NCBI RefSeq assembly: GCF_016907925.1
Contig: NZ_JAFBCZ010000014.1
Span: 1-64,000 of the forward strand
Source of the DNA: Herpetosiphon giganteus
GTDB taxonomy: Bacteria > Chloroflexota > Chloroflexia > Chloroflexales > Herpetosiphonaceae
DNA length: 64,000 nucleotides
Direction: 5' to 3'
Shown one piece after another: positions 32,499-35,064 of the stretch. Every line of letters starts with the position of its first letter. Within the stretch, counting starts at the first letter, position 1. The notes under the pieces are model-generated. The model was not told the origin of the DNA. It was given only the letters and a program-made list of their open reading frames with translations, and ran no database searches. A program made the position numbers and the translations under genes.

Positions 32499-32785
32499 GC
32501 TGGGGATCGGAGGCTGGGGTTTGGGGATCGGAACCGCGAAGAGCACGAAGAACACCGAATTGGGGATTAGTAATGACAAGAACATTCCACAAAATATGAT
32601 TTAGGGGGTGCTGGGGGATGAAAACCCCCGGCGTTTCCCTCCGGCGGAGGGACGGAAGGGTGGCGAAATAATTTTTGGAGTGCAGGAGTTTTCGATCGGA
32701 GCCGCGAAGATCCTAAAGATCGGGCTAAATCTATCATTCAAGCACAGCGCTAAAAGCCAAACCAAGCCAATTTTGCTTGGATTGA
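32499..32785. other. Intergenic region with degenerate repeats
   Basis: No gene seen. It holds GGCTGGGGTTTGGGGATCGG-like repeats at 32505-32530, CGCGAAGAGCACGAAGAACAC 9-mers, and a short palindrome GGCGTTTCCCTCCGGCGGAGGGACG (about 32629-32653), which contains the inverted repeat CCCTCCG/CGGAGGG. Confidence 0.5.
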
Positions 32786-32963
32786 TTGACATTTAACAGA
32801 ACGTGCTACAATGATCATGCTCTCGACCATTGTTGGCGGGAAGCACTGGTTCATTTTCTGGTTTCAAACACCACTTGGATCGCAACCGACCGAGATGGTA
32901 AGTACACAGTGATGTGCTTCGTTCTCCTCGGCTGACGCGATTCGGCGTTGCGGAGGTTTTTTT
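32786..32963 (+). promoter_or_regulatory. Promoter and structured leader ending in a terminator at the DUF2520 start
   Basis: TTGACA at 32786 and TACAAT at 32807 (15-bp spacer; TTGATT at 32783 would give 18) predict a leader of about 145 nt. Internal pairings compete: AAGCAC (32841) with GTGCTT (32914), and CTCG (32822) with CGAG (32891). At the end, an imperfect hairpin (32926-32956) is followed by seven T and directly by ATG. The GGAGG ribosome site lies in its 3' arm. This is the layout of a riboswitch or attenuator. Since panB lies next, the known pan RNA motif is one candidate; I cannot confirm it. Confidence 0.6.
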
Positions 32964-33779
32964 ATGGCTTTTTCCGCTCGACCGACGGTCGGCATGCTTG
33001 GCGCAGGCAAGGTTGGTACTGCTTTGGCTTTGGCCTTAAAGCAGGCTGGCTATCCGATTGCTGGCGTTTCCTCACGTTCACCAACGTCGGCCCAGATGTT
33101 GGCCCAGCAGCTTGAATGCTCGGTGCTAACACCTGCTGCGTTATTTACCCAAGCCCAACTCATTTTCCTGACTATCCCCGATGATCAATTGGCCCCGTTA
33201 GCCCAAGAACTCGCCGCAACCTTGCCGCAAAGCACTGGCATTGTGGCTCATTGTTCGGGCGCTTTGACTAGCAGTGTGTTGCAACCCTTGCAATTGCGTG
33301 GTTGGCAGGTTGCTAGTTGCCATCCATTAGCTCCGTTTGCCAGCCGCACCACTCCCTTGCCGCAAGCAATTACTTGGGCAATCGAGGCTGAACCAGCGCT
33401 GTATGCTGTGCTGGCCGAGCTTGTGCAGGCCGTTGGCGGAATTCCACGCCCAATGCAGGCCGAGCATAAAGTGCTGTATCACAGTGCCGCCGTGCTTTCA
33501 GCTAATTATGCCATTACCCTTGCGGCGCGAGCCGTCGATTTGCTGCAACTTTGCGGTTGGTCGGGGCCAGAAGCCTTGCAAGCACTCGTACCCCTACTGC
33601 GCGATAACGTCGAGAATTTGGCGCGGCTTGGCTTGCCGCAAGCATTAACTGGCCCCTTGGCCCGCGGCGATTATGGCACGGTCGAACGCCATCTTCAGGC
33701 GCTCGATGCCAATGCTCCCGAGATTGCACGCTTGTATCGAGCCTGCATTGAGGCAACCCAACCGTTATTGAGAACATAG
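32964..33779 (+). CDS. Rossmann-fold protein with DUF2520 domain, candidate ketopantoate reductase
   Basis: 271 residues. N-terminal NAD(P)-binding domain (VGMLGAGKVGTALALALKQAG; SRSPTSA suggests NADP) followed by a helical DUF2520 domain with EHKVLYHSAAVLSANYAITL, ALTGPLARGDYGTVERHL. The fold resembles ketopantoate reductase and F420-dependent reductases. Its neighbour panB makes ketopantoate, so a role as the missing reductase is plausible but unproven. GGAGG lies 7 nt before ATG inside a terminator hairpin. The stop codon TAG belongs to a GAACATAG repeat. Confidence 0.85.
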   Translation: MAFSARPTVGMLGAGKVGTALALALKQAGYPIAGVSSRSPTSAQMLAQQLECSVLTPAALFTQAQLIFLTIPDDQLAPLAQELAATLPQSTGIVAHCSGALTSSVLQPLQLRGWQVASCHPLAPFASRTTPLPQAITWAIEAEPALYAVLAELVQAVGGIPRPMQAEHKVLYHSAAVLSANYAITLAARAVDLLQLCGWSGPEALQALVPLLRDNVENLARLGLPQALTGPLARGDYGTVERHLQALDANAPEIARLYRACIEATQPLLRT

Positions 33780-34148
33780 AAAAGTATGAAGGATGAGGGA
33801 TGAAGGATGAACGTAAGAACATAGAGCATAGAACATAGAACATAGAACATAGAAAAGGATGATGGATGAAGGCAGAAGGCTGAATTCAAAATAGGGGCGA
33901 AAGAGCGGGGTCTGTTTTTAACGCAGCGGCGCAGAGGAAGGATGGCTTTTGGCTGGAGGCTATTGGCTATCGGGGATTTGTCAGAAACTTTAGATCCAAA
34001 GCCCATAGCCAAAAGCCCATAGCCTTACCCTTCGTGCCCTTCGCGTTCTTCGCGGTTTCAGTGGCTTTGGACTATCGAGGTTTGTCAGAAACTTTAGATC
34101 CAAAGCCCATAGCCAAAAGCCCATAGCCTTACCCTTCGTGCCCTTCGT
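33771..34148. repeat. Composite repeat array between the DUF2520 and panB genes
   Basis: Starts as GAACATAG, which supplies the DUF2520 stop. GGATGAG and GAACATA heptamers follow to about 33870, then a mixed part, then a 67-bp segment repeated exactly at 33977-34043 and 34081-34147 (104-bp period) that begins TTTGTCAGAAACTTTAGATC. The panB side is pyrimidine-rich (CCCTTCGTGCCCTTCG). No gene is present in the gap. Confidence 0.88.
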
Positions 34149-34197
34149 GGATCAGAACGTTACACAATTCTTTATCAACCAAGCAAAGGAGCTACCT

Positions 34198-35064
34198 ATG
34201 CGAACCCAATTGAGCGATATTCAACGGATGAAAGATCGAGCCGAACGCTTGGTGATGGTAACTGCTTACGACTACACCAGTGCCCAATTGATCGATCGCA
34301 CCGATATTCCCTTGATTTTGGTGGGCGATTCGTTGGGCATGGTCGTGCAGGGCAATAGCTCAACTGTGCCCGTCACCATCGATGAAATTGTCTATCATAC
34401 CAAGGCCGTGATGCGCGGCAGCAGCAAAGCCCTTGTGGTCAGCGATTTGCCATTTTTGAGCTATACCAGCCCTGAACAGGCCATCCAAAATGCTGGCAAA
34501 TTGATGCAGCTTGGCGGTTGTGGCGCGGTGAAACTTGAAGGTGGCGTGAATATGGCTCCGACTGTGCGCCGCTTGGTCGATTTGGGCATTCCGGTGATGG
34601 GTCACTTGGGCTTTACGCCGCAATCGGTCAATCAAATTGGCATGCGGGTACAGGGCAAAACCGTTGCTCATGCCCGCCAGTTGCTCGAAGATGCCTTAGC
34701 CTTGGAAGCTGCTGGGGCGTTTGCGATTGTGCTAGAGCTAATTCCCGCTGCCTTGGCCAAAGCCATCACTGAGCGGTTGCATATTCCAACGATTGGGATT
34801 GGCGCAGGGGTTGGCTGTGATGGCGAAGTCCAAGTTTGGCACGATATTTTGGGCTTGTATAACGATCATCTGCCCCGCCATACCAAGCGCTACGCCGATT
34901 TGGGCAGCACGATTGAGCAAGCGCTGAATCAATATGCCCAAGAAGTGCGCGAGCGGAGTTTTCCAACTGCCGCCAATAGCAGCGTGATCGATGCTAAGAC
35001 GTTAACCGAAGCGCTCGGTGAACAGGCAGTCAGCCTCGGTACAGCTGCCAAAGTCAGCGTCTAA
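34198..35064 (+). CDS. panB: 3-methyl-2-oxobutanoate hydroxymethyltransferase
   Basis: 288 residues. Transfers a hydroxymethyl group from methylene-tetrahydrofolate to ketoisovalerate, giving ketopantoate (pantothenate/CoA pathway). Motifs are complete: [69 protein letters not shown] and [18 protein letters not shown]. The ATG at 34198 is chosen for AAGGAG 6 nt upstream. It follows the DUF2520 gene in the same direction, across 418 bp filled with repeats. panC and panD are not in the window. Confidence 0.96.

Follow-up and report, generated by a model that had tools for sequence, protein, structure and literature searches.

The pan motif was described by Weinberg et al. in 2010 (PMC2864571) as hairpins in tandem, with two A's bulged out of each, that precede pantothenate synthesis genes, and Chloroflexi were already among its hosts. 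The main text of that paper deals with operons of panB, panC and aspartate decarboxylase, sets out no switching mechanism, and suggests that the motif is bound by a dimeric protein. No effector, ligand or switching mechanism of pan was found in the literature searched here, from which most subscription papers were out of reach. As for the genes, a protein of the DUF2520 type has been linked, in a Corynebacterium genome paper (PMC4572677), to the PanG homologues EF1861 and FTT1388, which are ketopantoate reductases.

The leader considered here belongs to Herpetosiphon giganteus and lies in a window of 64,000 nucleotides, i.e., the whole stretch of DNA that was analysed. A first-pass annotation had marked it as a candidate riboswitch or attenuator, with the pan motif as the first candidate given its occurrence before pantothenate genes, Chloroflexi included, and this premise agrees with the 2010 paper. 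The leader resembles the RF01749 family in its hairpins, which are arranged in tandem and bear two bulged A's apiece, and in its place before pantothenate genes, with panB second in this case. It differs from the motif of the 2010 main text in that the DUF2520/panG gene comes first and panB after, and in that the terminal hairpin also covers the Shine-Dalgarno sequence, with a U-run that abuts the start codon. The features are as follows, all in window coordinates.

32786-32812, forward strand: predicted promoter, with TTGACA at 32786-32791, a 15-nt spacer and an extended -10 TGC-TACAAT (from the sequence; boxes invariant in six genomes of the genus)
32818-32845, forward strand: pan hairpin P1, UGC-UCUCG-A-CCA[UUGU]UGG-CGGGA-A-GCA (RF01749 match; covariation)
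32871-32898, forward strand: pan hairpin P2, CCA-CUUGG-A-UCG[CAAC]CGA-CCGAG-A-UGG (RF01749 match; covariation)
32877-32943, forward strand: predicted antiterminator (nascent-RNA fold; phylum-wide pairing of the P2 3' strand with the terminator 5' arm)
32900-32919, forward strand: linker hairpin HP3 (AAGUACA/UGUGCUU), the top of the predicted antiterminator (fold; invariant in the genus)
32926-32956, forward strand: terminator-like hairpin, with the Shine-Dalgarno GGAGG (32952-32956) in its 3' arm (fold energy)
32957-32963, forward strand: seven-T run that abuts the start codon ATG at 32964 (from the sequence)
32964-33779, forward strand: gene of a DUF2520/Rossmann-like protein, probable ketopantoate reductase PanG (PF10728, PF10727)
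34198-35064, forward strand: panB, ketopantoate hydroxymethyltransferase, the second gene (TIGR00222 at 329 bits, PF02548)

Identity of the leader and its genes

The Rfam covariance-model search that had been proposed for this leader was run, and RF01749 matched 32818-32902 over model positions 1-92 of 92 at 42.8 bits, above the gathering score of 36.2 bits, when laxer filters were applied to the neighbourhood of the leader. When Rfam was run over the full window with its default filters, no match at all was returned, which is put down to a filter artefact. In the six genomes of the (Herpetosiphon-like) genus the model scored 40.1-42.8 bits throughout. The element is a genuine member of the known orphan pan RNA family in a compact layout, and the initial guess was correct. 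Around the leader, Rfam also gave weak matches to Clostridiales-2, SOX2OT, FinP and mir-150, all far below threshold, which were disregarded. Given that an element above the gathering threshold at these positions escapes the default filters, pan may be under-annotated in Chloroflexota.

The TTGACA box starts at the first base of the leader region, and the TACAAT of the extended -10 lies at 32807-32812, positions which suggest that transcription probably starts near 32817 and that the leader measures about 146 nt up to the ATG, very close to the 145 nt first estimated. The promoter pattern scan preferred another -10 register, with an 18-nt spacer, at a score not above chance for the region. Between the promoter and the start codon almost all bases are invariant in the six genomes of the genus, the DNA just upstream of TTGACA having diverged, and the full leader folds at -53.5 kcal/mol versus -43.0 kcal/mol in shuffles (z -2.9). 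Further upstream, at window 32604-32665, lies a palindrome-rich element, GGGGGATGAAAACCCCCGGCGTTTCCCTCCGGCGGAGGGACGGAAGGGTGGCGAA, which has a single copy in the window, recurs in inverted form 5' of panD in the H. giganteus genome and upstream of the pan leader in a second genome (G001), and is read as an interspersed repeat.

The downstream genes proved to be those first named, a reductase-like DUF2520 protein (by PF10728 and PF10727) and panB (by TIGR00222 and PF02548). The DUF2520 protein is of the same domain family as the reductases EF1861 and FTT1388 (via PMC4572677), and its gene adjoins panB. Since a search of the H. giganteus genome for PanE gave none over the cut-off, the DUF2520 gene is likely the ketopantoate reductase of this organism. 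The genes panC and panD lie elsewhere in the genome, and a search in front of both revealed no pan copy. Among relatives, the commonest order is pan-panG-panD-panB-panC, and in family f13 (L018 / L210, L213) the gene of pantothenate kinase leads, in the order pan-coaX-panG-panB. The panG-panB spacer (window 33780-34197) spans about 420 nt in H. giganteus and is packed with short repeated phrases such as AAAGCCCATAGCCAAAAGCCCATAGCC; two close relatives have longer spacers (518 and 752 nt), and the other three have spacers of 179-217 nt.

Distribution and covariation of the hairpins

The two hairpins are built alike, with five pairs between bulged A's that occur once per strand, at 32826 and 32842 in P1 and at 32879 and 32895 in P2, and they follow each other at a spacing of 25 nt. 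As the Rfam family search over 158 genomes of the class was too lossy, relatives were sought through a gene-anchored search, a hand-written descriptor (a stem, five pairs, a bulged A and a short top stem) that was run 5' of DUF2520 homologues, and a covariance model of our own.

The descriptor matched upstream of DUF2520 in the sister genus and in order f3. Pan was found upstream of DUF2520 in 20/79 regions, which come from named genomes of Chloroflexota, Firmicutes, Deltaproteobacteria and others, versus 0/79 on the reverse strand, 0/79 inside the gene and 1/395 shuffles. The covariance model, R1, was built from 11 tandem leaders, two of them from the genus of H. giganteus, so that its score of 79.1 bits for the window is high partly by construction; at E <= 0.01 it matched in 87 of 400 Chloroflexota genomes, the matches near this limit being partly due to chance. 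In the f2 relatives that have panB and are devoid of DUF2520, no pan was found. Three leaders of family f9 (L077, L079 and L082) have a single hairpin, P2 alone, between the predicted -10 box and the DUF2520 start region.

All ten pairs of P1 covary among 28 relatives (covariation 1.02 versus 0.25 in shuffles), as do seven of the ten pairs of P2 among 36 relatives (0.37 versus 0.19), and the signal vanishes once the pairing partners are slid. Since the descriptor requires most P1 and P2 pairs, the share of paired positions is to some extent a matter of construction, which does not hold for the variety of pair types; the bulged A's are invariant among the relatives, though the descriptor demanded them. 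The covariance analysis proposed at the outset thus did find strong covariation among the homologous leaders, the lack of which had been named as grounds for refutation.

These results bear on another reading, in which the untranslated leader is an ordinary one and its hairpins are due to chance; this reading could appeal to the general frequency of short hairpins and to the unmatched default Rfam scan. An RF01749 score above gathering, the near-invariance across the genus together with the covariation, and the recurrence of the same element 5' of the same genes in many groups argue against it so strongly that its probability is considered negligible.

Terminal hairpin and possible control of translation

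The hairpin at 32926-32956 has a predicted energy of -17.2 kcal/mol, whereas shuffles average -10.05 (z -3.1), and only 1/200 of them was as good. The expectation of a terminal hairpin followed by seven T's that touch the start codon, with the ribosome-binding site in its 3' arm, was confirmed, and GGAGG stands 7 nt from the ATG. The stem is broken by mismatches, and in the H. giganteus leader a simple terminator score was no better than in shuffles.

Relatives supply further evidence, given that an intrinsic terminator follows P2 in 39/57 Chloroflexota leaders, and that terminators after pan reach a combined p of 6e-15 in a set of 21 loci that come mostly from phyla other than Chloroflexota. 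The sister genus (L022) has a differently built terminator with a U-run at the equivalent position, and a deltaproteobacterial leader (L147) has a terminator whose U-run likewise abuts the ATG. In order f3 and some f9 relatives, leaders are without a terminator and P2 adjoins the start codon. The earlier reading of the leader as an attenuator gains support from the terminators that come after pan across distant phyla.

The same pan element could also be coupled, in this genus, to a terminal hairpin that acts on translation only, masking GGAGG without terminating transcription. The placement of GGAGG within the stem at 7 nt from the ATG, the interrupted stem with its poor terminator score, and the terminator-free f3 and f9 relatives would all fit such a device. 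On the other hand, the run of seven T's 3' of the stem is perfect, most relatives have true terminators after pan, the sister genus with its U-run among them, and the deltaproteobacterial case shows the same contact between U-run and ATG, for which reasons control by translation only is held to be rather unlikely, and a terminator-type platform is preferred.

Predicted antiterminator and competing pairing

The predicted antiterminator pairs GGAUCGC (32877-32883) and CCGAG (32890-32894), both from P2, with GCGAUUC (32937-32943) and CUCGG (32927-32931). In simulated nascent RNA, P2 is lost to the antiterminator or to related pairings when the transcript ends at about 32938-32950, the antiterminator is the most stable fold for ends at about 32942-32946, and completion of the terminal 3' arm brings back P2 together with the terminal hairpin.

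In the H. giganteus leader alone, the complementarity of the antiterminator does not exceed that of shuffles (p ~0.1), and the leader is too conserved in the genus for covariation to test it there. Across 39 loci of the phylum, cross-pairing of the P2 3' strand with the terminator 5' arm exceeds shuffles at a combined p of 1.3e-5, and at p 6e-4 with one locus per family. One 5' arm that is common among the terminators, CCUUCUCGG, is a complement of CCGAGACGG in the P2 3' strand, with 8/9 pairs in L230 and L184. Pairing between the pan region (ending at P2) and the terminator arm in 21 leaders mostly outside Chloroflexota showed no signal (combined p 0.31), and the cross-pairing was weak in 16 independent cross-phylum leaders when linker and arm were shuffled together (p 0.11-0.22), so that a clear signal emerged solely from the 39 leaders of the phylum. 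The competing pairing first noted in the sequence is upheld in simulated nascent RNA and phylum-wide, and not by this leader alone when set against shuffles.

Probable mechanism, sign and effector

The leader is quite probably a pan RNA joined to a terminator-type expression platform that exerts feedback control on the panG-panB operon. The effector, either a metabolite or a metabolite-sensing protein, would bind and stabilise the pan hairpins when pantothenate or CoA is plentiful. A stabilised P2 would block the antiterminator, allowing the terminal hairpin to form and RNA polymerase to halt at the seven U's, and in the transcripts that escape, the Shine-Dalgarno sequence would be masked by the terminal hairpin, leaving the operon off. 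Without the effector, the antiterminator would displace P2 and the operon would be expressed. As in terminator-type riboswitches and in protein-bound attenuators, of which the PyrR leader is an example, the sensing hairpin, the antiterminator and the terminator would be mutually exclusive; in contrast to terminator-type riboswitches, two small bulged hairpins take the place of a complex aptamer, and no riboswitch class is claimed.

The sign of the switch can be reasoned from the layout, given that a stabilised P2 would favour the terminator here and would occlude the start region where it lies beside the start codon, as in f3 and f9, so that both arrangements point to P2 stabilisation as the OFF state. 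The opposite sign, in which binding prevents the terminal hairpin and turns the operon on, draws on the fact that sequence alone does not reveal the sign. It is considered improbable, given that P2 shares a strand with the antiterminator, such that a stabilised P2 favours the terminator, and that the synthesis genes of vitamins are usually repressed by their end product.

With the OFF sign retained, the nature of the bound partner is a separate matter. The pan hairpins might be recognised not by a metabolite but by a protein, a dimer of which would sit on the two hairpins, and the remaining mechanism would be unchanged. Such binding, as proposed by Weinberg et al. (PMC2864571), is in keeping with the simple, small and tandem hairpins, with the single-hairpin forms in f9 relatives and with the lack of a ligand report in the literature searched. 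No candidate protein emerged from this analysis, and the strongly conserved bulged A's and closing pairs suit either mode. A protein as the bound partner is given about even odds.

Genes behind pan in other Chloroflexota

Other genes also follow the R1 matches to pan in the phylum. For example, an ECF transporter operon (EcfA1-EcfA2-EcfT) lies 3' of pan in L233, L235, L237, L239, L249 and L264, with an S component (PF12822) in L239 and L264 and coaX after the ECF genes in L237 and L249. This arrangement suggests pan-regulated pantothenate uptake via ECF operons, in which the S component would carry pantothenate. In L238, L245, L250, L251, L252 and L261, the gene next to pan encodes an S58 peptidase (PF03576, DmpA/beta-aminopeptidase type), and most of these loci continue with panG-panD-panB-panC or panB-panC, L261 ending within the peptidase gene; the enzyme might release beta-alanine or salvage pantothenate. 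Two second pan copies, both of them strong matches with a terminator (64.6 bits for L230 in G453 and 59.4 bits for L232 in G209), precede genes whose link to pantothenate is not obvious, namely a molybdopterin oxidoreductase in L230 and a hexulose-6-phosphate synthase/RraA fusion in L232.

The position of pan before uptake and kinase genes speaks for an end product as the signal, rather than an intermediate of the pathway. It is tentatively proposed, as a broader reading with somewhat less than even prospects, that pan in Chloroflexota senses the end product, be it pantothenate or a CoA species, and through a common P2/antiterminator/terminator switch controls synthesis, uptake, phosphorylation and the S58 peptidase. 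If this is true, the regulon would comprise panG-panD-panB-panC, the ECF A1-A2-T-S genes, coaX and the S58 peptidase, the last for beta-alanine supply or pantothenate salvage.

Finally, the H. giganteus leader provides a compact, genus-conserved example of pan, whose relatives show a recurrent P2-antiterminator-terminator logic together with added target genes (transporter, kinase and peptidase). The likely effector is narrowed to a pantothenate/CoA end-product signal, and the leader is short and well defined enough to serve as a construct for direct tests.
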